Shown here: positions 250 through 19,023 of the stretch, piece after piece
Position numbering within the stretch: position 1 is the stretch's first letter
How the letters are laid out: the number at the start of each line of letters is the position of its first letter
From: Pseudorhodobacter sp. PARRP1
Lineage (GTDB): Bacteria; Pseudomonadota; Alphaproteobacteria; Rhodobacterales; Rhodobacteraceae
DNA length: 64,000 nucleotides
Assembly (NCBI GenBank): GCA_002256245.1
Contig: NKIU01000003.1
Coordinates: 372,001 to 436,000 of the forward strand
Reading direction: 5' to 3'
Notes under the pieces: model-generated
Database searches by the model: none
Seen by the model: the letters and a program-made list of their open reading frames with translations, nothing else
Told to the model about the DNA's origin: nothing
Position numbers and translations under genes: made by a program

Positions 250-933
250 GTGATCGCAGACAGAGCCGGTGTCATGGACAACAACGCAGACGACCCCATT
301 CTGCCCCGCGCCAAGCCTGCGTTCGACCAGGACCCGCACCGCGTCCGCGAGTTGTCCGAGCGCAATCTGGAAATGGCCATCGGCCGTTCGGTGCGCGCCT
401 TCCGCCGCGCCCAAGGCATGACGGTGGCCGACCTTGCGGGCGTCACGGGCCTGTCCATCGGGATGCTGTCAAAGATCGAAAACGGCATCACTTCGCCCTC
501 GCTGACCACGCTGCAAATCCTGTCACACGCGTTCTCCACCCCGGTCACCTCGTTCTTCCGTGGCTTTGAGGAACGCCGCGAGGTGCAGCATGTCAAGGCC
601 GGGGATCACATTGAAATCGAGCGCCGCGGCACGCGCGCGGGCCATCAGTATCACCTGCTGGGCCATATCGGATCGAACGATTCCGGGGTGTTGGTGGAGC
701 CTTACCTGATCACGCTGACCACCGAATCCGACACGTTCCCGGCGTTTCAGCACGACGGGATCGAGCTTTTGTATATGCTGGAGGGAGAGGTCGAATACCG
801 TCATGGTGATCAGCTTTTCCATTTGAAACCGGGGGATAGCCTGTTCTTCGACGCCGACGCCCAGCACGGGCCAGAGGTTCTGGTGAAATTGCCGGCGCGG
901 TATTTGTCGATCATCTCTTATAAGCAGGCCTGA
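250..933 (+). CDS. Cupin-domain XRE-family transcriptional regulator
   Basis: This is a 227-residue protein with an N-terminal HTH of the XRE/Cro type at about residues 45-100 (FRRAQGMTVADLAGVTGLS followed by MLSKIENG) and a C-terminal cupin fold at about 140-225 (QHDGIELLYMLEGEVEYRHG, then HLKPGDSLFFDADAQHGPE). Proteins with this layout (PuuR-like) are usually repressors whose cupin senses a small catabolic ligand. The gene is convergent with dmmC at the edge of the methylated-amine island, which makes it the best local candidate for controlling the shared promoter motif; that link is inference. The start is ambiguous: GTG 250 has AAGGG upstream at good spacing, while ATG 274 would give a protein starting MDNNADD with no clear ribosome site. 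Confidence 0.85.
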   Translation: MIADRAGVMDNNADDPILPRAKPAFDQDPHRVRELSERNLEMAIGRSVRAFRRAQGMTVADLAGVTGLSIGMLSKIENGITSPSLTTLQILSHAFSTPVTSFFRGFEERREVQHVKAGDHIEIERRGTRAGHQYHLLGHIGSNDSGVLVEPYLITLTTESDTFPAFQHDGIELLYMLEGEVEYRHGDQLFHLKPGDSLFFDADAQHGPEVLVKLPARYLSIISYKQA

Positions 934-1151: not shown

Positions 1152-2192
1152 TCATTCCGGCGCAAACCCCGGGCTGGTCGGCAAGCCATCGTCAAACGGC
1201 GCGAGATAGTCCAGCATCAAGGCCTTGTTGCGGATAAAGCCCTTGTAGGTCGCCAGTTCGTCGGGAATATCACGCACCACCCGGTGCATCCGGCGCGCCC
1301 ATTTCGGCACCGTCACCAGATCCTGAAAGCTGATCAGATAGCAGCGGATCGGAAAGGCGATGGCATTGGATCGCGGCAGGCGGTGCAGAGTCTGCAACTC
1401 CACCCGCAGATGCTGCCTACGGCCCACCGTCTCGGGCGTCATCGTGGTTTTCGACGGGCCCCATTTGGGATAATTCTCGGGCGAGGTGTCCAGCAGCGGA
1501 TCAACCGTCATCGTCCAGTTGAACCGCCGCACCGGGGCGCCGTGCTGCAACTTCAGCAGAAACTTCAACGCGCGGTCGAAAATCCCGGCCTGATGCGCCA
1601 AGGGCACCGGAGCGTGCCACTGCTTGAAACTCATGCCGATGTCGAAATCAAGGCTCCAATCGGCTTGGGTCGTCACCATCCCAGCCTCAATCCATAAATC
1701 ATCATCCCGCTGATCTTGCAGGGTAAAATCCCCCTGCGTCTGCCGAGTGATATATTCCATCGGCCCACATGGCAGGGTCGAGGCATCCATGAAGGTAAAC
1801 CGTTGCTCAATCTGCAAAGGCCGGTTGATCCAATGCCACTGATTGCCGTCGCGGTGCAGCGAGAACCAGTGCGGATAATCCCGCGCCTTGCTCTCCATGA
1901 TCAACTCCAGCAGATCCCAGCCCGCCAGTTCCATATGCGGCAGGCTTTGGCAGCGCAAAGGATCATCCGCCAACACCTGCGCCCGGTCGCGCATTTCCGA
2001 GACGTAATGCTCGTCCACATCAAACATATGCTCGAACACCGACCCCACCGGGCCGGGCACATGCGGCTCCATATTCACCGAATACATGTAGCTGTCTTCG
2101 GGGAAGGGGAACGGGAAGCGTTTGATCGCGCGGGCCGAGTTGCGATAGGTGAAATCGCCGCGAAAGGTCTCGTCGTTGAAATCCAGTGACAT
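1152..2192 (-). CDS. dmmC: Dimethylamine monooxygenase subunit DmmC (heme-dependent N-demethylase, DUF3445 family)
   Basis: This 346-residue protein belongs to the DUF3445 / heme-dependent oxidative N-demethylase family. It contains the conserved C-terminal stretch RVELQTLHRLPRSNAIAFPI, and length and overall pattern fit the family. In studied members this is the catalytic subunit, a heme-binding PAS-like fold that oxidatively demethylates dimethylamine to methylamine and formaldehyde using electrons from a flavin/iron-sulfur reductase. It is the last gene of the four-gene operon dmmD-A-B-C read leftward, 10 bp after dmmB. ATG 2192 is preferred because GGGGG precedes it; an extension to 2282 would overlap dmmB by 80 bp. 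Gene letters follow the order dmmDABC described for roseobacters. Confidence 0.88.
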   Translation of the reverse strand: MSLDFNDETFRGDFTYRNSARAIKRFPFPFPEDSYMYSVNMEPHVPGPVGSVFEHMFDVDEHYVSEMRDRAQVLADDPLRCQSLPHMELAGWDLLELIMESKARDYPHWFSLHRDGNQWHWINRPLQIEQRFTFMDASTLPCGPMEYITRQTQGDFTLQDQRDDDLWIEAGMVTTQADWSLDFDIGMSFKQWHAPVPLAHQAGIFDRALKFLLKLQHGAPVRRFNWTMTVDPLLDTSPENYPKWGPSKTTMTPETVGRRQHLRVELQTLHRLPRSNAIAFPIRCYLISFQDLVTVPKWARRMHRVVRDIPDELATYKGFIRNKALMLDYLAPFDDGLPTSPGFAPE

Positions 2193-2202
2193 GCGTGTCC
2201 CC

Positions 2203-3168
2203 CTATCTGTCCAGCACAAGGCCCGCGCCGCGAAACCGCGAGACGCAGGGCATGATCTTGGTATGGCTGGCTTTTTGATCATCGCTCAGCCAGTGGTCGT
2301 TGTGTTCGATATGGCCTTCGCAGCGCAAAACATCGGTCTCGCATTGCCCGCAAGCGCCACCCCGGCACAGATAGGGGGCATCGACGCCTGCCGCCTCAAT
2401 CGCCTCGAGCAGCGATTGGTTCGGCTGCACGGTGATGGTTTTGCCCGAGGCCGCAAGGCTCACGTCAAACGCCAGACCCACCGGCGGGGCGAGGAATTCT
2501 TCGGAATGGACAGCGCGGTCCGGCCAGCCCATCGCGCGCGCCGTGGCATGCACCCAGGCGATCATGCCCTTGGGGCCGCAGACATAGACATGCGTGCCAA
2601 GCGGTTGGGTTTTCAGCAGGTTGGCAAGGTCGATCTTCTCGTCAAATGCGTCGTGATAGACATGCACGCGCGCCCCGTAACGGCCGCGCAAATGATCGAC
2701 GTAAGCCCCCAAAGCGGGCGAGCGCACCGAGTAATGCAGCTCAAACCGCCCGCCCATCGCCTCCAGCTGCGCCATTTGCGCCACGAAGGGCGTGATGCCG
2801 ATGCCGCCCGCGATCAACAGATGTTTCTTGGCGCGCGCATCCAGCGGAAACAGGTTGACGGGCTGGCTCAGCACCATCTCCATCCCCGCCCGCACATGGT
2901 TGTGCATGTAAAGCGAGCCACCGCGCCCGGCCTCATCCCGGCGCACCGAGATTTCATAGCCGCTGGTATCGCCCGGCGCACTCATCAACGAATAGGGGTT
3001 CATCCGGCGGGTGCCGTGGTCGTCCATCTCGACCACCACATGCGCGCCGCCCGAAAATACCGGCATCGCAAGCCCATCGCGGCGCACGAAGCGAAAGCGC
3101 TTGATCAGCGCGTTGACCTCGATCACCTCGGCCACCACCACCGGGATTTTGGGCGCACCGACGCTCAT
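2203..3168 (-). CDS. dmmB: Dimethylamine monooxygenase reductase subunit DmmB (flavin / 2Fe-2S oxidoreductase)
   Basis: This 321-residue protein has the layout of phthalate dioxygenase reductase / VanB-type enzymes. The N-terminal flavin-binding barrel carries RMNPYSLMSAP, the central NAD(P)-binding domain carries GGIGITPFVAQM, and the C-terminal plant-type ferredoxin domain has Cys268, Cys273, Cys276 and Cys308 (CRGGACGQC, then MPC). It should pass electrons from NAD(P)H to the heme subunit DmmC. Its start codon overlaps the end of dmmA by 4 bp, indicating translational coupling. The domain order is the usual one for this family. Confidence 0.9.
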   Translation of the reverse strand: MSVGAPKIPVVVAEVIEVNALIKRFRFVRRDGLAMPVFSGGAHVVVEMDDHGTRRMNPYSLMSAPGDTSGYEISVRRDEAGRGGSLYMHNHVRAGMEMVLSQPVNLFPLDARAKKHLLIAGGIGITPFVAQMAQLEAMGGRFELHYSVRSPALGAYVDHLRGRYGARVHVYHDAFDEKIDLANLLKTQPLGTHVYVCGPKGMIAWVHATARAMGWPDRAVHSEEFLAPPVGLAFDVSLAASGKTITVQPNQSLLEAIEAAGVDAPYLCRGGACGQCETDVLRCEGHIEHNDHWLSDDQKASHTKIMPCVSRFRGAGLVLDR

Positions 3169-3809
3169 TTGAACCGCTCCACCGAGGCCGGGATTTGCCC
3201 GGGGTCTTCCGCGTCAATGCAAACACCCTGAAACGCCGCGAGCCTGCGTGAGAAATGGTCGCGCACGAACAGCGTCAGCCCGCAATGGCTGCATTGGAAC
3301 GGGTCGAGCGTGACATTCTCGGTCACCCCCTTGCAATGCACGCATTGCACGCGGCGCGCGAGGCTGCCGCGATGCTCCATCTGCACCGCCTCATAGGGCA
3401 GGCCCGCCGCTTGCGCCGCAGCCGCCACCTGCGCCATCAGGCCTTCGGTGCCAGCGGCGTAAATCTGCATCCCCATGTGGGCATCGGCCAGAACCTTGGT
3501 CAGTCGGGGCAGGGCTGCGGCAAAGCTGGGGGCGCGGTGAAACTGCGCCACGCCCAGCGCCTGAAGTGCGCCCGTGTGATCAGAGCCATTCGCGCCGGGG
3601 ATATAGATGACATGCGCTGCGGCTTTCAACGCCGGGGCCGATGTCAACGCATCACACACCGCACCCGCGCCTTCACCATCGGCAACAAACAGATGCGCAG
3701 ACCCCACAGCGGGATGCAGCACGCCGTAAACCGGGCGGCTGGGAATAGCTGGCTCAAACTCGGTCTTGGTCATCGTCACGTCAATCCTTGGCTGTTCCGC
3801 CGATTTCAT
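3165..3809 (-). CDS. dmmA: Dimethylamine monooxygenase subunit DmmA
   Basis: This is a 214-residue protein without recognised catalytic motifs in its N-terminal part. The C-terminal region has two CxxC pairs, Cys156/Cys159 (CVHC) and Cys173/Cys176 (CSHC), which look like a rubredoxin- or zinc-ribbon-like metal knuckle. Position between the GcvT-like gene and the reductase matches DmmA of the dimethylamine monooxygenase. The subunit probably helps electron transfer or assembly, but its exact role is not evident from sequence. ATG 3809 lies inside a repeated intergenic element (AACGGATGAA), so the start may have been supplied by the repeat; ATG 3773 (MTKTEFEPAIPSRP) is the alternative. Confidence 0.8.
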   Translation of the reverse strand: MKSAEQPRIDVTMTKTEFEPAIPSRPVYGVLHPAVGSAHLFVADGEGAGAVCDALTSAPALKAAAHVIYIPGANGSDHTGALQALGVAQFHRAPSFAAALPRLTKVLADAHMGMQIYAAGTEGLMAQVAAAAQAAGLPYEAVQMEHRGSLARRVQCVHCKGVTENVTLDPFQCSHCGLTLFVRDHFSRRLAAFQGVCIDAEDPGQIPASVERFK

Positions 3810-5113: not shown

Positions 5114-5130
5114 ATTTCCTGACAGGGAAT
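5114..5130. promoter_or_regulatory. Candidate methylated-amine regulon operator upstream of dmmD
   Basis: ATTTCCTGACAGGGAAT is a near-perfect 17-bp palindrome (7 of 8 base pairs match) 82 bp upstream of the dmmD start. Related sites precede the APC gene at 6990, the small membrane gene at 10,477, mgsA and tmm. It is the best-formed copy and defines the motif. Confidence 0.55.
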
Positions 5131-5202: not shown

Positions 5203-6990
5203 TTATGCAGGCAGCACGAAGAACCAGTTCGACCACAGCACCACCGCAGCACCCGCGGCCAGCGCAAGATAGGGCAGCATCCCGGCCTTGCGCGGCCCGA
5301 GATCGCCGTGATCGGTCAGGCCCAGATCCTCCATCGCTTCCTTCGGGAAATGGCCCTTGTCCTGCACATAATGGCGGAACCAGAACACCGGCAGGATGAA
5401 GGCGGCGAACACCAGCCCTGCCCATAATGCCGGCGGGGCATCGGGATTTGCGCCGACGCTCTGCCAAACCTTCGCGCCTGCGCCAAGGAAAAGCAGGTTG
5501 ACGAACGCCAGCACCGTGTTGAAGCCGATCAACCAGCTTGGTGCTTTCCAAGGACGGTCAAGATGGGGCGAGTCAATGCGGTGAATCCAGCCCGCATTGA
5601 GGTTTAGAAAGTTGAACAACAGATAGCCGACGTTTGAAATTGCCAGCACGTAAAAGTAGCCGCCGACATTTGACGCAAGTGCCAGCAAGAAGACATTGAA
5701 GGCGAAATCTGTCCACATAGCTCCGGTAGGCGCGCCGTGGCTGTTGGTTTTGCTGAGATATTTCGGAAGCCAACCATCGCGCGAGCCCTGAAACAAGGTC
5801 CGAGAAGAACCGGCCATCGCCGTCATGATCGCCAGAAAAAGTGCAAGGATCATCAAGATCACGAAGATCTGGATGAAGATCGGGTTGGTCCCAAGCATCG
5901 CACCCAAAGCCGCGCCGACACCGGTGCCATCTACCACGCCGGTGGAAAGCAAAACTTCCTGACCGTAGTAACCCTGAAAAGAGAACGGAATCAGAAAGAA
6001 GAAGAGGATGCACAGCAGGCCAGAGTAGAAGATCGCGCGAAAGGTATCGCGTTTGGGGTCTTTCAATTCGGCAGTGTAGCACACTGCCGTTTCAAAGCCG
6101 TAAGTTGACCAAGCGGCGATGTACATGCCGCCCAAGAACAGCGTCCAACCGCCGATGTTCCACGCTCCGTTTACACCCGAGTAGGGCGCAGATGGCGGAA
6201 CAATTCCCGTTACGTTCATCGAGTTGATGCTTCCGGTGAAGATTGGCACCAGACCGACAAGCAGCAATGGCACCAGCACGATCACCGCCAGCACCTTTTG
6301 CGCGCTTGCCGTTGCTGCGATGCCACGATGTTGAATGACCATCATGATCAGCATCAGGACGACGCCGATCACGAAAGTTGAGTTGAAGTGCAGCAACCCC
6401 AAGCCCGGAATGTTCAGCGCATAAGCCTCCCACACCCGGAAGGCGGGGGTCAGGGCGGCGATGCCATCGGCATTGGCCACGGCTTGAATAGCGGCGTCAG
6501 GCGTGGTGCCTGCGTTGTTCGTGATATAATCAACAACAGCGGGCGTGGCCGCGGTGTAATCGGCCAGATGTGCCGCGACCCATGCCACCACTTGCGGCGC
6601 GGTTTCCAGCGGGATCGGGAACAAGGCGTTCAGGATATAGCCCGCCGCAATCGCGCAACCCAAGGACAGCACGGGCGACCATGCGAACCAGTTGCACCAC
6701 ACCGACAAAGGCGCGATCAGCTTGGAATAGCGCAGCCATGCGGTTGCGCCATAAACGGACGTGCCGCCCGATTTGTTGCCGAACATCCCCGCCATTTCGG
6801 CATAGGTGAAGCTTTGCGAAAAGCCCATGATCATCGACAGCATCCACACCACGAAGGCGGCTTGTCCCGCCACACCCGCGATGCCGCCGATGGAAAACAG
6901 CACAAGCGGCGGCACCCCGGCGGCGACCCAGAACGCGCCCTTCCAATTCAGCGTGCGATGCAGATCGCCCGCTTTGCTTTCAGTTGACAT
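5203..6990 (-). CDS. APC-superfamily amino acid/amine permease (595 residues)
   Basis: This large integral membrane protein has about twelve hydrophobic segments, starting with APC-type sequence around residues 15-60 (FWVAAGVPPLVLFSIGGIAG). It has a long hydrophilic stretch at about 135-190, between the third and fourth predicted segments, and a soluble patch near the C-terminus. The family moves amino acids or amines by cation coupling. Its promoter carries the shared motif at 7094-7111, and it lies between dmmDABC and the second transporter, so a methylated amine or a product is a reasonable substrate; this is inferred. At 595 residues it is longer than common APC members (about 450-500), mainly because of the extra loop. 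It is monocistronic, with its own terminator. Confidence 0.85.
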   Translation of the reverse strand: MSTESKAGDLHRTLNWKGAFWVAAGVPPLVLFSIGGIAGVAGQAAFVVWMLSMIMGFSQSFTYAEMAGMFGNKSGGTSVYGATAWLRYSKLIAPLSVWCNWFAWSPVLSLGCAIAAGYILNALFPIPLETAPQVVAWVAAHLADYTAATPAVVDYITNNAGTTPDAAIQAVANADGIAALTPAFRVWEAYALNIPGLGLLHFNSTFVIGVVLMLIMMVIQHRGIAATASAQKVLAVIVLVPLLLVGLVPIFTGSINSMNVTGIVPPSAPYSGVNGAWNIGGWTLFLGGMYIAAWSTYGFETAVCYTAELKDPKRDTFRAIFYSGLLCILFFFLIPFSFQGYYGQEVLLSTGVVDGTGVGAALGAMLGTNPIFIQIFVILMILALFLAIMTAMAGSSRTLFQGSRDGWLPKYLSKTNSHGAPTGAMWTDFAFNVFLLALASNVGGYFYVLAISNVGYLLFNFLNLNAGWIHRIDSPHLDRPWKAPSWLIGFNTVLAFVNLLFLGAGAKVWQSVGANPDAPPALWAGLVFAAFILPVFWFRHYVQDKGHFPKEAMEDLGLTDHGDLGPRKAGMLPYLALAAGAAVVLWSNWFFVLPA

Positions 6991-7186: not shown

Positions 7187-7459
7187 TCAGGCCCGCGCGC
7201 GGTGCCGCCAGACCTCGAATCGGATGCGCGCGGTTTTGTAGGCATCCAGCATCGCCAGCGCCCAGACGAACAATCCGCCCGCCAGTTTGCCGACCAGTGA
7301 TACCTCGGGGGCGGCGGTTTTCAGGGTGAAGGCACCCAGCAGAATGATGAAGAACACAAACGTCAGCCCGCGGATCGGCTGGCGGTTCAGCACTTGGCCA
7401 GACCCCGGCAGGATCGCGGCGGCCAGCAGCACAAGGCGGGGGTTGGGCGGTTGGCTCAT
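7187..7459 (-). CDS. Small membrane protein of unknown function
   Basis: This is a 90-residue protein with three hydrophobic stretches at about residues 8-23, 29-46 and 56-72 and a basic C-terminus (RIRFEVWRHRARA). The N-terminal pattern LLAAAILPGSGQVLNRQ resembles small DUF5683/TM2-like membrane proteins. Its ATG overlaps the stop of the preceding gene by 4 bp, so the two are co-translated. It is the last gene of the minus-strand unit starting at 10,477. No function can be assigned. Confidence 0.7.
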   Translation of the reverse strand: MSQPPNPRLVLLAAAILPGSGQVLNRQPIRGLTFVFFIILLGAFTLKTAAPEVSLVGKLAGGLFVWALAMLDAYKTARIRFEVWRHRARA

Positions 7460-8115
7460 GACAATTCCTTCAGATCATCGCGCAAGGCCAGCAGCGCGGC
7501 CAGCAGCGGTTGCAGCAGGGCAGGGGCAAGCGGTGTGCGCCCCATTTCGGCATCGCGGAAGGCCAGATAGCGGGTGCGGTCGGCTTCCTCGGCCAGCCAG
7601 ACAAGGCGCAGGCCCTTGGGCGCGATCACCATTTCCTTCAACAGATCGGGGCTAAGGCGCGCCAGATGCTCCAACACCAGATCAGCAGGCGGCGCGGCCT
7701 GAGGCGCATCGCTGCGGATGGCGCAATCTTCGGGGAAGCCGGGCGGCAGGGTGATCTGATGGGCCAGATCGCTGAAATGGCTGAACGGCTCCACCCCGCG
7801 CGGGCGCAGCATCACATCCAGCGTGGCGCGGGCCGGGGTCGGCTCGGCCAGTGTGACCAGCAGCCACAAAGCGGGTAGTTTGCGGTAGGTCAGCGTGTCG
7901 GGCACCACTTGCAGATCAAACAGCGCGCCCTGATGGCGGCCCGAAAGGCGCGGAAATCCGGTGGGGGCAAGGGCTGTGATCGGCGCATCAAAGAGGCCAG
8001 CCACATCGGCAAAATACCGCCCGCGCGCGGCCATACGCTTGGCGCTTTGCCCGCGCAGCCGCAGCGCAATGCCGCAGCCCATCGCAATCACCAAGGCCCA
8101 GATCAGAAATTTCAT
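7456..8115 (-). CDS. Membrane-anchored hypothetical protein
   Basis: This 219-residue protein has one N-terminal hydrophobic anchor (MKFLIWALVIAMGCGIALRL) followed by a soluble domain with segments such as LPALWLLVTLAEP and LAHQITLPPGFPED. No family was recognised. It follows the APC transporter by 52 bp, a space that holds a strong hairpin, and overlaps the next gene by 4 bp. Its place in the transporter operon suggests a membrane-associated accessory role, but nothing in the sequence names it. ATG 8115 is preferred over 8127 because it starts directly at the anchor. Confidence 0.65.
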   Translation of the reverse strand: MKFLIWALVIAMGCGIALRLRGQSAKRMAARGRYFADVAGLFDAPITALAPTGFPRLSGRHQGALFDLQVVPDTLTYRKLPALWLLVTLAEPTPARATLDVMLRPRGVEPFSHFSDLAHQITLPPGFPEDCAIRSDAPQAAPPADLVLEHLARLSPDLLKEMVIAPKGLRLVWLAEEADRTRYLAFRDAEMGRTPLAPALLQPLLAALLALRDDLKELS

Positions 8116-8133
8116 GCGGTCTTCCAAAAATGA

Positions 8134-8167: not shown

Positions 8168-9592
8168 TTAATACCCGCGTGGGCGCGGCCACGGCATGGT
8201 GAACTGATCGGCGCGTTTCACAAAGCGGTAGCGCCAGAAGTGGAACCACAGTGACACCACGATATAAAACCCGATCATCGCAATCAGCTGCGTGCCATAG
8301 CCAAGAAACACGGCAAAGTAGGTCACCGCGCACAAAGCCATCAGCGAAATCGCAGGCAGCGGGTGCAACGGATGCTCATAGCCGCGTTTGATGGTGTCGA
8401 GCGGCCATTTCTTGCGGAACATGATCATGTTGATCGGCATGAAGGTGTAACCCAAAAGCCCCGACAGGATCGAGAAGGTGATCACCTGATCCAAAGGTGC
8501 GCCCAAGGCGAAGATCAGCGCAATCGGCACCAGAAAGATGATCGCGCGGTAGGGGGTGCGATAGACCGGATGCACCGCGCCAAACCACGCGGGCAGATAA
8601 TGGTCACGCCCCATCGAAAACCACGCCCGGCTGGCATCATTGATACAGCCGTTCGCCGATGCCAAGGTGGCAAACAGCGTGCCGATCCCCAGCAGCCACA
8701 CCAGCGCGTTCGATCCCGAAATCTGCGCCGCCGAGAACAACGGTGCCACCGCGCCATTCACGCCGTCGCCCAGATACTCCCAAGGCAGCAGGCCCGAACA
8801 GACATACCACGTCAGCGTCGCCGCAATCAGCAGCGTCATGATCCCGGCAAGCGTGCCAAACGGCAAGGATCGCGCGGGCGAGCGGACTTCCTCTGCCGCC
8901 TGCGTCGTGCCCTCAATCCCCAGATAATACCAAAGGCCAAAGTGCATCGCCGCAAGGATACCCAACCAGCCGTAAGGCAGGCTGGCCTGACCGCTCATCA
9001 GATCCTTGTGCAGCATCTCTCCGGCCCCCAGCAGCGGCGAGGTTGCCAGAAACATCACAATGATCGCCGTGAAGGCAAAGGCGGTGATCACCAGATTGAA
9101 CGTCAGTGTGGCCAGCACGCCGCGATAGTTCAGCCATGCCAGAAACATGATCGCCAGCACAATGAACGGGCGTTGATCCAAGCCGCCCTCATGCCCGGTC
9201 ATCGCCGCCACGGTATCGACCAGAAACCCCAGCGTGATGGCATTACCGGCCTCAAGCATCGTATAGGCGAACACCAGATACAGGCCTACGTTGAACGCCA
9301 TCAGCGGCCCGATGATGTGCTTGGCTTGGGTATATTGCCCGCCTGCCGCGGCCACCGTCGATGTGACCTCGCTGTCGATCATCGCGACGCAAGAATACAA
9401 GATCCCCGCAAACCAGCAGGCGATAAGGGCTGCATAAGCCCCGCCCTTACCCACCGCAAAGTTCCACCCCATATACTCGCCCACCAAAACGATGCCGACC
9501 CCCAGCGCCCAAACATGCGCTGGCCCCAGCACCCGCAACAGGCCCATCGACTGGCCGTGTGCCGTGTGGTCCACGTCTTCAGAATGTGCCAT
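8168..9592 (-). CDS. APC-superfamily permease associated with small membrane proteins
   Basis: This 474-residue permease has about twelve membrane segments, of normal APC length. The N-terminal region (LLRVLGPAHVWALGVGIVLV) and SEVTSTVAAAGGQYTQAK resemble the ethanolamine/amine permease branch. It is preceded by three tiny membrane-protein genes and followed by two more membrane-associated genes, all on one strand with almost no spacing, and this unit diverges from mgsABC-gmaS. It is therefore a good candidate importer for methylamine or another methylated amine. Substrate assignment is inference from context; ethanolamine or another amine is the main alternative. Confidence 0.87.
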   Translation of the reverse strand: MAHSEDVDHTAHGQSMGLLRVLGPAHVWALGVGIVLVGEYMGWNFAVGKGGAYAALIACWFAGILYSCVAMIDSEVTSTVAAAGGQYTQAKHIIGPLMAFNVGLYLVFAYTMLEAGNAITLGFLVDTVAAMTGHEGGLDQRPFIVLAIMFLAWLNYRGVLATLTFNLVITAFAFTAIIVMFLATSPLLGAGEMLHKDLMSGQASLPYGWLGILAAMHFGLWYYLGIEGTTQAAEEVRSPARSLPFGTLAGIMTLLIAATLTWYVCSGLLPWEYLGDGVNGAVAPLFSAAQISGSNALVWLLGIGTLFATLASANGCINDASRAWFSMGRDHYLPAWFGAVHPVYRTPYRAIIFLVPIALIFALGAPLDQVITFSILSGLLGYTFMPINMIMFRKKWPLDTIKRGYEHPLHPLPAISLMALCAVTYFAVFLGYGTQLIAMIGFYIVVSLWFHFWRYRFVKRADQFTMPWPRPRGY

Positions 9593-9594
9593 CC

Positions 9595-9768
9595 TCAGCC
9601 CTCCAGCCGGTGTTTTTCGGTCATCGCTTCCAACTCGCCCTCACGCGAGGAGGTCAGCGCCTCTTCCGAATAGGTGGTGTCGATCTTGATCCAGTCGATC
9701 ACGATCAACAGCCCGAACAGCGCGGACAAGCCCCAGGCGCCGTATTCGATGTAATTCCAGGTATCCAT
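9595..9768 (-). CDS. 57-residue single-span membrane protein next to the APC transporter
   Basis: Starting from ATG 9768 (MDTWNYIEYGAWG), with AGGAG seven bases upstream, this gene encodes one hydrophobic span at about residues 10-25 and a charged tail (EEALTSSREGELEAMTEKHR). Its end overlaps or abuts the transporter start. An upstream ATG at 9792 would overlap the previous gene and lacks a ribosome site. No named family was recognised; conserved placement would suggest a transporter accessory subunit. Confidence 0.7.
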   Translation of the reverse strand: MDTWNYIEYGAWGLSALFGLLIVIDWIKIDTTYSEEALTSSREGELEAMTEKHRLEG

Positions 9769-9778
9769 CACGGCGCTC

Positions 9779-10159
9779 CTATTTCTCGCCAAACTTCTCG
9801 GCGATGACTTCGCGGTATTCCTTGTCGGACAGCCGGATCATCATCACGAAATAGCCCACGATCACGATCACCATCACCGCCAGCGCCATCCAGCTGAAGC
9901 TGTAGTCATAGCGCGCGGTGATCATGTCATGCGCCGAGGCCGCATCTGGAAAGCCAAGCTTGTTCCATTGCTGCACCATCACCGGGTTCTGCCCCAAACT
10001 CTCCCAAGTCGGGTTTTCCACCGGCACCGGCAGCTTGGCCGAGCCTGCAAGCCCCAGCCACAGCGGCACGAACAAGGCTCCAACCGACAGCACCACCAGC
10101 ACGATCACGTCGATGATCTGGCCCAGCTTGCTTTGAACGGGGGGGATATAGCGTGCCAT
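9779..10159 (-). CDS. 126-residue membrane protein with two spans, transporter operon
   Basis: Two hydrophobic helices at about residues 13-38 and 89-110 flank a hydrophilic central region of about 50 residues (VPVENPTWESLGQNPVMVQQ...). If the two helices form a hairpin, the central part would lie on one side of the membrane. The gene starts one base after the stop of the preceding 105-residue gene. No family was recognised. The arrangement is reminiscent of small helper subunits of secondary transporters, but that is only suggestive. Confidence 0.75.
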   Translation of the reverse strand: MARYIPPVQSKLGQIIDVIVLVVLSVGALFVPLWLGLAGSAKLPVPVENPTWESLGQNPVMVQQWNKLGFPDAASAHDMITARYDYSFSWMALAVMVIVIVGYFVMMIRLSDKEYREVIAEKFGEK

Positions 10160-10477
10160 CTATTTCCCCTTTGCCGCACGGGCGGCATCCAGAAACTTGA
10201 TGTCCAGCCCATACATGAAGTCGCGGTCCTCGCGGTAATGCCGCAGCATCGCCATGATCGCGGCGGTGTTGTAGATCAACACCAGCGCGCCCCCGATCAG
10301 CAGCATCACCCGCGCCCCGCCAGATGGGGCAAGATCCCAGGTGCCCCACATCACAAACCCGATAGCCAACCAAAGGCCGATGACAAAAGCCCACGCAATC
10401 CGCGTATCGCTTTGGTGCATCGCCTTGATCCGTGTGTTCAGATCAGACAAATTTTCCTCCCAAGTGGCCCCCTCCAC
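10160..10477 (-). CDS. 105-residue membrane protein with two spans, first gene of the transporter operon
   Basis: The protein has a hydrophilic N-terminus (MEGATWEENLSDLNTRIKAM), two hydrophobic helices at about 27-47 and 55-76, and a charged C-terminus with RHYREDRDFMYGLD. It resembles the two-helix 2TM domain proteins seen beside sensors and transporters, but no function is established here. Its upstream region has the candidate operator at 10,551-10,567, so it leads the minus-strand unit that ends at 7187. Confidence 0.75.
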   Translation of the reverse strand: MEGATWEENLSDLNTRIKAMHQSDTRIAWAFVIGLWLAIGFVMWGTWDLAPSGGARVMLLIGGALVLIYNTAAIMAMLRHYREDRDFMYGLDIKFLDAARAAKGK

Positions 10478-10550: not shown

Positions 10551-10567
10551 ATTTTCTGACAGGAAAC
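10551..10567. promoter_or_regulatory. Candidate methylated-amine regulon operator upstream of the small-protein/APC operon
   Basis: ATTTTCTGACAGGAAAC pairs at 6 of 8 positions and shares CTGACAGG with the site upstream of dmmD. It lies 74 bp upstream of the start at 10,477. Confidence 0.5.
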
Positions 10568-10931
10568 ACTGCCTGCGACATTCTGTCAAAGCATTTGATG
10601 AGAAATTAGGCGAAATGATAACTTGAGCCTTCCGTGGGCTGGACGGGATAAGCAAACTCTCCAGTGGAGAGTTTGCCCCGGCCATGTGGAAACGGAATGG
10701 GTAGATCCCTTCAAGCACCACTGTCAGAGGGCAGCGCCTGACCTGGCTGGCGTGAAGCGCCTGCCATGGGCAGGGCAGGCGCTGCCCGGTGGCTTTGGGC
10801 CACCGGGGGGCAAGTTGCCCCGTTGCGACTTTGGCCAATGCAAAAGCATCGGCCAAACCCAAACTCTCCATCTGCGTCCACCCCGCCCAAGCCTTCACCG
10901 CACCGCCCACATTCCCGGCAAAATGAAAATC
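10568..10931. other. Intergenic region between divergent transporter and mgs operons
   Basis: This stretch holds three stem-loops arranged like the tandem-hairpin element: GCAAACTCTCC / GGAGAGTTTGC at about 10,648-10,672, GCGCCTGCC / GGCAGGCGC at about 10,759-10,784 and CCCGGTGGC / GCCACCGGGG at about 10,785-10,808. The TTGCTCA hairpin of the other copies is missing. Open frames across it read through the hairpins and are not credible genes. Confidence 0.6.
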
Positions 10932-11024: not shown

Positions 11025-11921
11025 ATGTGCGGAATCGTCGGGCTTTTCCTGAAAGACCCCAAACTACAGCCTCAGTTGGGGGCCATGCTGACCGACATGC
11101 TGATCACCATGACCGACCGTGGCCCCGACAGCGCCGGTATCGCGATCTATTCTCAGGGTAAAATCGGCCACGGCAAGCTGACCGTGCAATCGGCCACGCC
11201 CGAGGTTGATTTCAAAAACCTCGACGCCGATCTGAAAGACGCGCTGGGCACCCCGGTGCTGATGCTGGTGAAATCCACCCACGCCGTGCTGGAAGTGCCC
11301 GCGGGCCAGTTGGATGCAGCCCGCGCGGCACTGGCAAAAATCCGCCCCGGCCTCAAGGTGATGTCCTCGGGCGAAGGCATTGAGATTTATAAGGAAGTAG
11401 GCCTGCCCAAAGACGTGGCGGCCCGCTTTGAAGTCGCCAAGATGCACGGCACTCATGGCATCGGCCACACCCGGATGGCCACCGAATCTGCCGTCACCAC
11501 CATGGGCGCGCACCCGTTCTCGACTGGCCCGGATCAGTGCCTTGTGCACAACGGCTCGCTGTCCAACCACAACGGCGTGCGGCGCGTGCTGAAACAAGCC
11601 GGCATGACGTTTGAGACCGAAAACGACACCGAAGTCGGTGCTGCCTTCGTCAGCCACAAGCTGCAACAGGGCGAAACCTTGGGGCAGGCGCTGGAAGCCA
11701 CGCTCACCGATCTTGACGGTTTCTTCACCTTCGTGGTCGGCACCAAAGACGGCTTCGGCGTGGTGCGTGATCCGATCGCCTGCAAGCCCGCTGTGATGGC
11801 CGAAACCGACCAATACGTCGCCTTCGGGTCCGAATACCGCGCCCTCGTCAACCTGCCGGGCATCGAATCCGCCCGCGTATGGGAGCCCGAGCCCGCAACC
11901 GTTTACTTCTGGGAACGCTGA
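11025..11921 (+). CDS. mgsA: N-methylglutamate synthase subunit A (class II glutamine amidotransferase)
   Basis: This 298-residue protein begins MCGIVGLF, with the catalytic N-terminal cysteine of Ntn-hydrolase amidotransferases, and has GHTRMATESAV and HNGSLSNHNGVR. It corresponds to the GlxB/MgsA type. In the N-methylglutamate pathway it acts with MgsB and MgsC on gamma-glutamylmethylamide, releasing methylamine from the amide so it can be joined to 2-oxoglutarate. AAGGAG lies at good spacing before the ATG. It is the first gene of mgsABC-gmaS, with mgsB 2 bp downstream. Confidence 0.92.
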   Translation: MCGIVGLFLKDPKLQPQLGAMLTDMLITMTDRGPDSAGIAIYSQGKIGHGKLTVQSATPEVDFKNLDADLKDALGTPVLMLVKSTHAVLEVPAGQLDAARAALAKIRPGLKVMSSGEGIEIYKEVGLPKDVAARFEVAKMHGTHGIGHTRMATESAVTTMGAHPFSTGPDQCLVHNGSLSNHNGVRRVLKQAGMTFETENDTEVGAAFVSHKLQQGETLGQALEATLTDLDGFFTFVVGTKDGFGVVRDPIACKPAVMAETDQYVAFGSEYRALVNLPGIESARVWEPEPATVYFWER

Positions 11922-11923
11922 AC

Positions 11924-12616
11924 ATGCAGACTTTCGACCTTGAAGCGCAGGGCCTGCGCGCGCTGAACCAAGCGCTCCACAACCTGAAAGGCGCCAACAC
12001 GAATGAGACCGCTTGGGAAGTCGTCAACCCCAAAGGCAGCCACGCGATTGCCGTGGGTGTGGACGCCCCCATCGACATCACCGTGCGCGGCTCCACCGGA
12101 TATTACTGCGCGGGCATGAACAAACAGGCGACGATCCGCGTCAAAGGCTCGGCTGGCCCCGGCGTGGCCGAAAATATGATGAGCGGCACGGTGATCATCG
12201 ACGGCGACGCCTCGCAATACGCAGGTGCGACGGGTCGCGGCGGTTTGCTGGTGATCAAAGGCAACGCAAGCTCGCGCTGCGGCATCTCGATGAAGGGCAT
12301 CGACATCGTCGTGCATGGCAACATCGGCCACATGTCGTGTTTCATGGCGCAATCGGGCAACATTCTGGTGCTTGGGGATGCAGGCGACGCGCTGGGCGAC
12401 AGCCTGTATGAGGCCCACCTGTTCGTGCGCGGCACCGTCAAATCGCTGGGCACCGACTGTATTGAGAAAGAAATGCGCCCCGAACACCTTGCGATCATCG
12501 CCGACCTTCTGAAGCGCGGCGAAGCCGAACACCTCGCAAAACCCAGCGATTTCAAACGCTACGGCTCGGCCCGCAAACTCTACACCTTCAACATCGACAA
12601 CGCGTCGTCCTACTGA
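11924..12616 (+). CDS. mgsB: N-methylglutamate synthase subunit B (GXGXG domain protein)
   Basis: This 230-residue protein corresponds to the C-terminal GXGXG beta-helix domain of glutamate synthase as a free subunit (GlxC/MgsB type). Regularly spaced glycine-rich turns are visible: RGSTGYYCAGMN, GSAGPGVAENMMSG, DASQYAGATGRGG and GDAGDALGDS. It is structural and helps hold the active sites of MgsA and MgsC together. The ATG at 11,924 follows the mgsA stop directly; extension further upstream would overlap mgsA. Confidence 0.9.
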   Translation: MQTFDLEAQGLRALNQALHNLKGANTNETAWEVVNPKGSHAIAVGVDAPIDITVRGSTGYYCAGMNKQATIRVKGSAGPGVAENMMSGTVIIDGDASQYAGATGRGGLLVIKGNASSRCGISMKGIDIVVHGNIGHMSCFMAQSGNILVLGDAGDALGDSLYEAHLFVRGTVKSLGTDCIEKEMRPEHLAIIADLLKRGEAEHLAKPSDFKRYGSARKLYTFNIDNASSY

Positions 12617-12623
12617 GGCATAT

Positions 12624-13949
12624 ATGAGCGATTTTCCCCATACCCCGCCGAAGCAAAGCTGGACCTATTCCAACGACGTGAACGCCGAAATCCGCCGCGC
12701 CGCAGCCACCGGGATTTACGACATCCGTGGCGGTGGCAGCAAACGCAAACTGCCGCATTTCGATGACCTGCTGTTCCTCGGCGCGTCCATCAGCCGCTAC
12801 CCCCTCGAAGGCTACCGCGAGAAATGCGCCACCGACGTCTGGCTCGGCACCCGCTACGCCAAAAAACCGATCCACCTCGACATCCCCGTCACCATCGCAG
12901 GCATGTCGTTCGGCGCACTCTCCGGCCCCGCCAAAGAAGCCTTGGGCCGTGGCGCAAGTGCTGCTGGCACCTCGACCACCACCGGTGATGGCGGCATGAC
13001 CGAAGAAGAACGCGGCCACTCCAACACTCTCGTTTACCAATATCTGCCCAGCCGCTACGGCATGAACCCCGACGATCTGCGCCGCGCCGATGCCATCGAA
13101 GTCGTCGTCGGCCAAGGTGCAAAACCCGGCGGTGGCGGCATGCTGCTGGGTCAGAAGATCAGCGACCGCGTTGCCAAAATGCGCAACCTTCCCAAAGGCA
13201 TCGACCAGCGCTCTGCCTGCCGTCACCCCGACTGGACCGGCCCCGATGATCTGGAAATCAAGATCATGGAAATCCGCGAGATCACCGACTGGGAGAAACC
13301 GATCTACGTCAAAATCGGCGGCGCGCGCCCCTATTACGACACCGCCCTCGCCGTCAAAGCTGGCGCGGATGTGGTGGTGCTCGACGGCATGCAAGGCGGC
13401 ACCGCGGCCACCCAAGACGTGTTCATCGAAAACGTCGGCATGCCGATCCTCGCCTGTATTCCGCTGGCGGTCAAAGCGCTGCAAGACCTTGGTATGCACC
13501 GCAAAGTGCAACTGATCGTCTCGGGCGGCATCCGCACCGGGGCCGATGTGGCCAAAGCCATGGCCTTGGGCGCTGACGCCGTCGCCATCGGCACCGCCGC
13601 CCTGATCGCCTTGGGCGACAACGATCCGAAATGGGAATCCGAATACAACAAACTCGGCACCACCGCAGGCGCTTATGACGACTGGCACGAGGGCCGCGAC
13701 CCCGCAGGCATCACCACCCAAGACCCCGAGCTTTTCAACCGTTTCGACCCGATCCTCGGCGGCCGTCGCCTGAAAAACTACCTCAAGGTGATGACGCTAG
13801 AGGCCCAGACCATCGCCCGCGCCTGCGGCAAAAACCACCTGCACAATCTGGAACCCGAAGACCTGTGCGCGCTGACCATCGAAGGCGCGGCCATGGCGGG
13901 CGTTCCCTTGGCGGGCACCAACTGGATTCCCGGAAAGAACGGCTTCTAA
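12624..13949 (+). CDS. mgsC: N-methylglutamate synthase subunit C (FMN glutamate-synthase-like)
   Basis: This 441-residue protein matches the central FMN-binding domain of glutamate synthase as a free subunit. Visible elements are TIAGMSFGALSGPAKEALG, KPGGGGMLLGQKIS, VKIGGARPYYD and the phosphate-binding region VSGGIRTGADVAKAMALGAD. With MgsA and MgsB it forms N-methylglutamate from 2-oxoglutarate and the methylamine group of gamma-glutamylmethylamide. It begins 8 bp after mgsB. Size is normal for MgsC. Confidence 0.92.
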   Translation: MSDFPHTPPKQSWTYSNDVNAEIRRAAATGIYDIRGGGSKRKLPHFDDLLFLGASISRYPLEGYREKCATDVWLGTRYAKKPIHLDIPVTIAGMSFGALSGPAKEALGRGASAAGTSTTTGDGGMTEEERGHSNTLVYQYLPSRYGMNPDDLRRADAIEVVVGQGAKPGGGGMLLGQKISDRVAKMRNLPKGIDQRSACRHPDWTGPDDLEIKIMEIREITDWEKPIYVKIGGARPYYDTALAVKAGADVVVLDGMQGGTAATQDVFIENVGMPILACIPLAVKALQDLGMHRKVQLIVSGGIRTGADVAKAMALGADAVAIGTAALIALGDNDPKWESEYNKLGTTAGAYDDWHEGRDPAGITTQDPELFNRFDPILGGRRLKNYLKVMTLEAQTIARACGKNHLHNLEPEDLCALTIEGAAMAGVPLAGTNWIPGKNGF

Positions 13950-14011: not shown

Positions 14012-15319
14012 ATGGTCCAAGATCTAGCCGCCTACGCCAAGGAAAAGGGCGTTAAATATTTCATGGTCAGCTACACCGACCTGTTCGGCGCACAGCGCGC
14101 CAAACTGGTGCCGGCGCAAGCGATCAACGACATGGCCGTCGATGGCGCAGGCTTTGCAGGCTTTGCCACCTGGCTTGACCTCACCGCCGCCCACCCCGAC
14201 ATGATGGCGGTGCCCGATGCCTCCTCGGTCATCCAACTGCCGTGGAAAAAAGAGGTGGCATGGCTCGCCTCCAACTGCGTGATGGAGGGCAAACCGGTCG
14301 CCCAAGCCCCGCGCAACGTGCTGCGCAAACTGGTGGACGAGGCCGCAAAAGAAGGCCTGCGCGTCAAAACCGGGGTGGAGCCTGAATTCTTCCTGCTGAC
14401 CCCCGAAGGCGACAAAATCGCCGATCCCTATGATAACGCAGAGAAACCATGCTATGACCAGCAGGCGATGATGCGCCAATACGACGTGATCGCCGAGGTG
14501 TGCGATTACATGCTGGAACTCGGCTGGGAGGCCTACCAGAACGACCACGAAGACGCGACCGGCCAGTATGAGATGAACTGGAAATACGACGACGTGCTGC
14601 AAACCGCCGACAAGCACAGCTTCTTCAAATTCATGATGAAATCCGTGGCCGAAAAGCACGGGTTGCGCTGCACCTTCATGCCAAAACCGTTCAAAGGCCT
14701 GACGGGGTCGGGCTGCCACGCCCATATCTCGGTCTGGGATCTGGAAGGCAAGAAGAACGCATTTTCCGACGACAGCAAGGAACTCGGCCTGTCGGATCGG
14801 GGCCGCAATTTCCTCGGCGGCATTATGAAACATGCCTCGGCACTGGCTGCGATCTGCAACCCGACCGTGAACAGCTATAAACGCATCAACGCCCCGCGCA
14901 CCTCGTCGGGCGCGACCTGGGCACCCAATACCGTGACCTGGACGGGCAACAACCGCACCCATATGGTCCGCGTGCCGGGGCCGGGTCGGTTCGAATTGCG
15001 CCTGCCCGATGGCGCGGCCAACCCCTACCTGATGCAGGCGGTGATCCTGGCCGCGGGCCTTGACGGCGTGCGCACCAAAGCCGACCCCGGCCCGCGCTAT
15101 GACATTGATATGTATACCCAAGGTCAAACCGTTACCGGCGCGCCGAAGCTGCCGCTGAACCTGCTCGATGCCTTGCGCGACTACGACCGCGACACCACCC
15201 TGAAAGCCGCGATGGGCGAGGAATTCTCTGCCGCCTACCTGAAACTCAAGGGCAAGGAATGGGACAGCTACGTCAGCCATTTCTCGAAATGGGAACACGA
15301 AAACACGCTGGATATCTGA
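14012..15319 (+). CDS. gmaS: Gamma-glutamylmethylamide synthetase GmaS
   Basis: This 435-residue glutamine-synthetase-fold enzyme has the glutamate/ATP motifs GVEPEFFLLTPEG, GQYEMNW, FMPKPFKGLTGSGCHAHISV and NSYKRINAPRTSSGATWAPN. It belongs to the short GlnA-type family that uses methylamine instead of ammonia, making gamma-glutamylmethylamide from glutamate, ATP and methylamine. Placement immediately after mgsABC fixes the role better than sequence alone, because ordinary glutamine synthetases are related. GGGAG precedes the ATG. It is the fourth gene of the operon. Confidence 0.92.
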   Translation: MVQDLAAYAKEKGVKYFMVSYTDLFGAQRAKLVPAQAINDMAVDGAGFAGFATWLDLTAAHPDMMAVPDASSVIQLPWKKEVAWLASNCVMEGKPVAQAPRNVLRKLVDEAAKEGLRVKTGVEPEFFLLTPEGDKIADPYDNAEKPCYDQQAMMRQYDVIAEVCDYMLELGWEAYQNDHEDATGQYEMNWKYDDVLQTADKHSFFKFMMKSVAEKHGLRCTFMPKPFKGLTGSGCHAHISVWDLEGKKNAFSDDSKELGLSDRGRNFLGGIMKHASALAAICNPTVNSYKRINAPRTSSGATWAPNTVTWTGNNRTHMVRVPGPGRFELRLPDGAANPYLMQAVILAAGLDGVRTKADPGPRYDIDMYTQGQTVTGAPKLPLNLLDALRDYDRDTTLKAAMGEEFSAAYLKLKGKEWDSYVSHFSKWEHENTLDI

Positions 15320-18063: not shown

Positions 18064-19023
18064 ATGTCCAAATTCAATCAACCACTTGGCGGCAACGAAA
18101 TGGCGCGTTTTGGCGGGCCCGCGACGATGATGCGGCTGCCCACGCAAGATACGGCGGCGGGCTTGGATGTGGCGTTTATTGGCATCCCGATGGATATCGG
18201 CACGTCGAACCGATCCGGCACCCGGCACGGTCCGCGCCAGATCCGGGACGAGTCGCGGATGCTGCGCCCGTTCAACATGGCCACCGGGGCTGCCCCGTTT
18301 GATCATTTGCAGGTGGCCGATATCGGCGATGTGCCGATCAACACCTTTGATCTGAAAAAGTCGGTCGATATCATCACCGATTACTACAACGGTGTGCTGG
18401 CGCATGGCGCGCTGCCGCTGACTCTGGGCGGCGATCACACCCTTACCTGGCCGATTTTGCGCGCGATCAAGGCCAAGCACGGGCCTGTGGCGCTGATCCA
18501 TGTCGATGCGCATGCCGACATCAATGACACGATGTTTGGCGAGAAAGTTGCCCATGGTTGCCCGTTTCGGCGCGCGTGGGAAGATGGCTGTCTGCAAAAT
18601 GACAAGGTGTTTCAGATCGGCTTGCGGGGCACGGGGTATAGTCTGGATGACTTTGACTGGGGCCGCAAGAACGGCTGGACGGTGGTGCAGGCCGAGGAGT
18701 GCTGGCACAAGTCGCTGAAGCCGCTGATGGCCGATATCAGGGCCAAGATTGGCGATGCGCCGGTGTATCTCAGCTATGACATCGACAGCCTTGATCCGGC
18801 CTTTGCGCCGGGGACTGGCACGGTAGAACCGGGTGGGTTGACCATATGGCAAGGTCTTGAAATTGTGCGCGGATGTGCGGGATTGAACATCGTGGGCGGC
18901 GATCTGGTCGAGGTCTCGCCCCCCTATGATCCGTCGGGAAATACCGCGCTGATCGGGGCCAATTTGCTGTATGAAATGCTGTGCGTGCTGCCCGGCGTGC
19001 CGCAGGGCAAGACTGTCGGTTGA
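18064..19023 (+). CDS. Agmatinase-family ureohydrolase
   Basis: This 319-residue protein has the manganese-binding motifs of the arginase/agmatinase family: GGDHTLTW, DAHADIND and DIDSLDPAFAPGTGT. These enzymes hydrolyse guanidino compounds to urea and an amine; agmatinase, guanidinobutyrase and guanidinopropionase cannot be told apart by eye. It diverges from tmm, with 226 bp between starts, so it may be co-regulated with amine use. It is convergent with the DUF1330 gene, 6 bp from its stop. Confidence 0.88.
   Translation: MSKFNQPLGGNEMARFGGPATMMRLPTQDTAAGLDVAFIGIPMDIGTSNRSGTRHGPRQIRDESRMLRPFNMATGAAPFDHLQVADIGDVPINTFDLKKSVDIITDYYNGVLAHGALPLTLGGDHTLTWPILRAIKAKHGPVALIHVDAHADINDTMFGEKVAHGCPFRRAWEDGCLQNDKVFQIGLRGTGYSLDDFDWGRKNGWTVVQAEECWHKSLKPLMADIRAKIGDAPVYLSYDIDSLDPAFAPGTGTVEPGGLTIWQGLEIVRGCAGLNIVGGDLVEVSPPYDPSGNTALIGANLLYEMLCVLPGVPQGKTVG

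Follow-up and report, generated by a model that had tools for sequence, protein, structure and literature searches.

The question raised by this locus is what an APC-type permease preceded by three very small membrane proteins does beside the genes of N-methylglutamate synthase, and whether the small proteins belong to the carrier. The window, i.e., the whole stretch of 64,000 nucleotides from Pseudorhodobacter sp. PARRP1 analysed here (contig NKIU01000003.1), was shown to contain a conserved six-gene operon that encodes an APC carrier and five undescribed proteins, its putative partners, and that is tied to the N-methylglutamate pathway.

All six genes (s105, s126, s57, APC, orf223, and orf90) are located on the minus strand. 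Small protein 1 is encoded at 10160–10477 (105 aa from a GTG), small protein 2 (s126) at 9779–10159 (126 aa, ATG), small protein 3 (s57) at 9595–9768 (57 aa, ATG) and the permease, the putative carrier, at 8168–9592 (474 aa, ATG). The gaps between these four ORFs were 0, 10, and 2 bp, and the three small membrane-protein genes were thus found directly ahead of the permease gene, as described in the earlier note. Since the alignment of most relatives begins at MSDL and TTG 10450 has a GGAGG ahead of it, this TTG is probably the start of the first gene; the ORF given in the note stands, but its product would have 96 residues (s96) rather than 105. The block of four genes proposed there was real but incomplete, as orf223 (7456–8127; 219 aa from ATG 8115) and orf90 (7187–7459; 4-bp overlap with orf223) were shown to be conserved with it downstream of the permease. 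The orf223 start lies 40 bp past the permease gene if a TTG is used and 52 bp past it for ATG 8115.

As also noted before, the unit diverges from mgsABC-gmaS, which is located on the plus strand and comprises mgsA, encoding the glutamine-amidotransferase-type subunit of N-methylglutamate synthase (11025–11921), mgsB (11924–12616; assigned by position, a GXGXG-domain protein being found here in annotated relatives), mgsC for the glutamate-synthase-like subunit (12624–13949; FMN-binding in annotated relatives, and used here as pathway marker) and gmaS for gamma-glutamylmethylamide synthetase (14012–15319; TIGR03105, 662.9 bits, cut-off 469.6). With mgsB left out, mgsA, mgsC, and gmaS showed 71, 84, and 77% identity to their counterparts on plasmid pAMI6 of Paracoccus aminophilus, a stretch that appears to be the published mgsABC-gmaS operon, judging from gene order and the accessible text of PMC4543880.

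The unit was found to be highly conserved. Among the best 80 of 321 confirmed relatives, all of them loci with the APC gene, 76 contained all six genes and the other four were interrupted by contig ends; two of the 76 (L035 and L101) were flagged by the script for a deviating order, which was an artefact of stop-to-stop ORF starts, positions and gaps showing the usual order. The three upstream genes accompanied all eight APC orthologues detected in 248 genomes of the family. A profile of s126 matched 6 of 385 genomes of the class and 15 of 398 genomes of the phylum, one of the latter falsely: the match in G896 (E 7.5e-4) was dropped, as none of the six genes is present there. In all 17 true s126 genomes other than our own in these two samples, s105, s126, s57, and APC occurred together. 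One of the 17 lies outside the class, and the unit thus reaches beyond Alphaproteobacteria. Twelve of 14 wider regions (L134–L147) contained the six genes in the same order, the remaining two (L134 and L140) ending at contig ends. In L147, from a genome of another class, a universal stress protein gene (PF00582; 6761–7192) was located between APC and orf223.

On plasmids, the 22 records with the APC gene were the same 22 as those with s126, and belonged to Aminobacter (9), Sinorhizobium (6), Paracoccus (2), Paraburkholderia (2), and Rhizobium, Pararhizobium, and Pseudohalocynthiibacter (1 each). The APCs of this group showed at least 66% identity, and the APCs below it, in a spread of 30 of 72 records, at most 30.1%. 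The closest named records to the permease were from Cypionkella (97–98% identity). According to the earlier note, its proposal would be refuted if most relatives with the permease lacked the small genes. No genome or plasmid locus with sufficient sequence was found to carry this APC subfamily without them, a result that does not refute the proposal.

The coding sequences are constrained as well. Median dN/dS in 13–14 close pairs was 0.09 for s105, 0.07 for s126, 0.08 for s57, 0.04 for APC, 0.17 for orf223, and 0.11 for orf90, medians that exclude pairs with a dS of 0.05 or less and thereby drop one s57 pair (L044/L050) with a ratio of 0.45. The genes s105, s126, and s57 are thus under purifying selection (0.07–0.09), and conservation and coding constraint together show that the gene block is not due to chance.

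By a hydropathy count, which is crude since it gave only nine transmembrane (TM) segments for the APC protein, two TM segments were assigned to each of s96, s126, and orf90 and one to each of s57 and orf223. Small protein 1 is a hairpin of two TM segments and has a conserved tail at its C-terminus. In s126, the two TM helices are connected by a loop of about 55 aa containing two short helices, and the C-terminal EY..VI.E.F was invariant in 30 aligned sequences; an AlphaFold2 model (mean pLDDT 82.5, low pTM of 0.42) also showed two long helices and a loop with two short ones. In four genomes of one genus (L135–L138), the s126 loop between the TM helices carried an insertion of about 33 residues. 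The single TM segment of s57 is followed by a conserved tail, with SSxEG in all 15 sequences shown, and the N-terminal TM segment of orf223 is followed by a remainder of about 195 aa. For orf90, a resemblance to DUF5683 was detected below the cut-off. None of the five accessory proteins of the window matched a Pfam or NCBIfam family above the curated cut-off, and nine distant relatives of them matched no Pfam family above it. Profile searches against PDB sequences gave no matches for s126 and orf223 and two unconvincing ones for s105 (both E about 0.6), and a PHROG search with s105, s126, and s57 gave weak matches only. A phage origin was rejected, as s126 had no match in phage records.

The tie of the operon to methylamine metabolism is strong. 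Fourteen of 398 Pseudomonadota genomes, belonging to seven genera, carried the operon and all 14 had MgsC, which was present in 44 of the 398 genomes in total (p = 5e-15 by Fisher's test, kinship ignored); in the family sample, MgsC was present in 7 of 8 operon genomes vs. 75 of 248 overall (p = 0.001). Altogether, 33 of 36 distinct operon genomes contained MgsC (67–100% identity), a count derived from two sets (23/25 and 11/12) with one genome, of the same coordinates as G010, counted once. MgsC was present in all 22 genomes of the set of 25 that were rated at least 90% complete. The three operon genomes without MgsC at this level were G021 (79% complete), G317 (82% complete; 50% match only) and G981. 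In 22 of 23 genomes, operon and MgsC were located on one contig, at most 20 kb apart. Among 99 operon loci, mgsA, mgsC, and gmaS were nearby in 72, 70, and 67 (>35% identity; 60% for mgsC), and 29 had neither mgsC nor gmaS in the fetched flank, some of these on short contigs. On paAMD1, a plasmid of Aminobacter, about 20 kb separate the operon from mgsABC-gmaS and sarcosine-oxidase-type (mgd-like) genes, and on P. aminophilus pAMI6 the operon adjoins mgsABC-gmaS; the strain paper does not mention the operon in the text covered (PMC4543880). On two plasmids, of Aminobacter niigataensis (L231) and Pseudohalocynthiibacter (L233), the operon was found beside homogentisate catabolism genes; a tyrosine/homogentisate context was rejected, as hmgA was nearby in only 2 of 99 loci. 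The operon is not required for the pathway, since 30 of the 44 MgsC genomes of the phylum set lacked it. In the literature, most methylamine-cluster genes on the plasmid of A. niigataensis MD1 are up on dimethylamine according to a figure legend in the accessible part of PMC9699525, and amino-acid permeases are listed among the functions responding to methylamine in Methyloversatilis universalis FAM5 in the portion of that work available.

The explanation that we favor, with moderate confidence and from sequence evidence, is that the six genes encode a heteromeric importer, in which the five proteins other than the APC, as subunits or accessory proteins, each represent a new family. The importer would bring in monomethylamine (methylammonium), or possibly a close methylated amine, to feed GmaS and MgsABC. 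There is a minor chance that the main substrate is instead dimethylamine (DMA) or trimethylamine (TMA). The DMA monooxygenase gene (window 1152–2282) was detected in 29 of 36 operon genomes, and in 17 of 22 when only good genomes are counted, which keeps DMA and TMA among the possible substrates; this gene encodes a PF11927 HODM alpha-like subunit, the NCBIfam name DmmA falling on 3168–3809. It was also present in G981, the genome of locus L085, which has the operon and no MgsC match. Five good genomes (G410, G584, G508, and G283 of one genus, and G905) argue in the other direction, as they carry the operon and MgsC and no DMA enzyme (E 1e-30); although four of them are of one genus, they favor monomethylamine. 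Near the operon in the 99 loci, tmm was found in 13, dmmD in 15, and the gene at 1152–2282 in 6, compared to the far higher counts for mgsA, mgsC, and gmaS, a weak contrast since mostly 6-kb flanks disfavor the dmm cluster with its position on the far side. The nearest named relatives of the permease, described below, adjoin genes of primary-amine metabolism, which also speaks against DMA and TMA. An agmatinase-type ureohydrolase gene (18064–19023, plus strand; TIGR01230, 215.2 bits, cut-off 174.3) was detected near tmm and had no counterpart in the 99 operon loci. As PMC9699525, in the part available, names homologues of agmatinase as candidates for the hydrolysis of metformin to dimethylamine, this enzyme might release a methylated amine.

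The divergent promoter region contains an imperfect palindrome (TTTTCTGACAGGAAA / TTTCCTGTCAGAAAA; 10552–10566) and, on the minus strand ahead of the operon, a −35-like TTGACA box (10584–10589) that was conserved in 15 aligned regions; the alignment of these regions also showed a conserved TTGACAGA plus TTTCC..GAAA. The earlier note had claimed a shared motif. At up to three mismatches, TTTTCTGACAGGAAA was found at 5115 and 27944 besides its own site at 10552, and no palindrome was detected upstream of tmoP, tmm, and gmaS in the window. A search of both strands gave five matches vs. 0.88 expected, and none of 100 shuffles reached five, an enrichment inflated by the query itself being a site of the window. 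The variant at 5115–5129 (TTTCCTGACAGGGAA), located ahead of the dmm operon, favors DMA or TMA as substrate. In 62 divergent regions of relatives, the palindrome was present in 56 at up to four mismatches and in only 10 at up to two. A PuuR-like XRE-cupin regulator (250–933, plus strand; below cut-off) has relatives in 47 of the 99 operon loci, and may therefore control methylamine genes.

Regarding the substrate, the permease was assigned to the APC families PF00324 (AA_permease; 109.9 bits, cut-off 24.6) and PF13520 (103.9 bits, cut-off 27). Its closest named APC relatives found were ethanolamine permeases, Eat (TIGR00908; 181.4 bits, under the cut-off of 381.75), which are 24–29% identical to operon APCs. 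GkApcT contacts the carboxylate of its substrate at Thr43 and Gly44 in TM1, according to the accessible text of PMC5803215. Aligned to GkApcT, all nine operon APCs shown had a one-residue deletion in TM1 together with GEY or GEF, a deletion shared by five Eat proteins. The motif GEYMGWN of the operon APC corresponds to GEY in three of the five Eat proteins and to GDF and GQY in the others, and in TM6 the operon APCs have IEG, which is found in three of five Eat proteins, the other two having VEG. Such an altered TM1 would fit a small amine without a carboxylate: the acidic E39 beside the unwound TM1, at the place of the carboxylate in GkApcT, might favor a small cation. That the carrier moves an amino acid of the pathway (gamma-glutamylmethylamide, N-methylglutamate or glutamate), in or out, would agree with APC carriers being mostly amino-acid carriers, including the solved relatives found by sequence, but is decidedly unlikely, as both TM1 and TM6 resemble those of ethanolamine permeases, the type to which the closest relatives belong. 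The five Eat genes have eutBC (three loci) or a primary-amine oxidase gene (two loci) as neighbors, and no small-gene block apart from one hypothetical ORF of 51 aa in Paenarthrobacter, in PLSDB gene tables that are incomplete. Trimethylamine N-oxide is an unlikely substrate of the operon APC, as the window encodes a separate TmoP (5203–6990; NF053774, 791.5 bits, cut-off 690), which shares the APC fold and is only 19% identical to the operon APC; the operon APC matched 10 families at E up to 1, and NF053774 was none of these.

For the small proteins, the statement in the earlier note that APC transporters normally act alone was too strong, as SLC7-SLC3 and GkApcT-MgtS are heteromeric according to the accessible text of PMC5803215. 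GkApcT-MgtS (5oqt, 6f34), among the best solved sequence matches, consists of a CAT-type APC carrier and a one-TM partner, which packs on TM5 of GkApcT; GkApcT made without MgtS showed less transport at a similar initial rate (both from the available part of PMC5803215). MgtS derives from the E. coli host and not from GkApcT's own operon, and GkApcT is an amino-acid transporter. SLC7-SLC3, as covered in PMC5803215 in part, joins an APC carrier to a membrane partner, as proposed for the operon. No SLC3-type heavy-chain domain was detected among the operon proteins. The SLC3 partner is single and has a large ectodomain, in contrast to the several very small proteins of the operon.

In the importer that we propose, the APC protein would be the carrier, working by alternating access in the APC/LeuT manner, and the three small proteins encoded upstream, probably together with orf90 and the membrane-anchored orf223, would be subunits, or partners dedicated to its assembly or regulation. 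The small proteins would pack around the carrier with their conserved tails probably in the cytosol, and protein 2 may add a small extramembrane cap. What we infer from the data above comprises the formation of a complex, the inward direction of transport, the substrate, the coupling to ions, and the topology. It seems unlikely that the APC protein acts alone and the accessory proteins are otherwise employed, e.g., in tethering GmaS/Mgs to the membrane or in sensing substrate, a role that the conserved C-terminal tails and the faster evolution of orf223 compared to the other five genes would fit, since the small genes track APC and not mgs: no intact APC locus lacks them, and most MgsC genomes are without the operon.

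Ammonium transporters of the Amt family (PF00909) were considered as a possible replacement. Amt is an uptake protein with a fold unrelated to APC, and it is not known to have small partners. Among operon-negative genomes, 25 of 54 had an Amt gene at most 20 kb from MgsC, vs. 3 of 23 among those with the operon (p = 0.009; p = 0.03 at 10 kb; kinship ignored). The 54 were hand-picked from 94 operon-negative MgsC genomes (32 of 72 from the family and all 22 from outside), and fragmented contigs conceal some MgsC neighbors. This contrast makes Amt and operon look like alternatives, yet many genomes have neither nearby (29 of the 54 lacked an Amt gene at this distance) and three have both; with the MgsC genomes without the operon counted above, neither of the two is required. 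In 19 MgsC regions without operon or nearby Amt, a crude hydrophobicity screen detected no recurring transporter, one region containing a TmoP relative. In some relatives, Amt occupies the same place upstream of mgsA; among seven divergent Amt loci, the promoter before Amt resembled that of the operon in two (G104 and G026) and not in five. The use of methylamine releases ammonium, which would agree with the operon being an exporter of ammonium or excess amine; the uptake protein Amt at the same place makes this highly improbable.

A description of the operon was not found in the open PMC literature, as far as its text was accessible, including the available parts of PMC13390433, PMC4543880, PMC5520151, PMC9800807, PMC6794327, PMC8235418, PMC5023228, PMC9699525, PMC5017803, and PMC5023235. 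It is possible, though rather doubtful, that three to five of the small membrane proteins are obligate subunits of this carrier, which would then be the first such case among bacterial APC proteins, serving methylammonium specifically and independent of Amt.

Methylamines are an important share of marine dissolved organic nitrogen (PMC13390433, accessible part), and the mode of methylamine uptake is called unclear for pelagic Methylophilaceae without the N-methylglutamate pathway (PMC6794327, accessible part). Bacterial uptake of monomethylamine is poorly covered in the open literature. If the importer reading is true, the operon would provide a candidate importer for several groups of Proteobacteria, including strains grown on methylated amines such as P. 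aminophilus and A. niigataensis MD1, a testable role for five unnamed protein families and a bacterial model for an APC carrier with small subunits. It would perhaps also allow methylamine to be taken up while ammonium, its competitor in Amt, is present.
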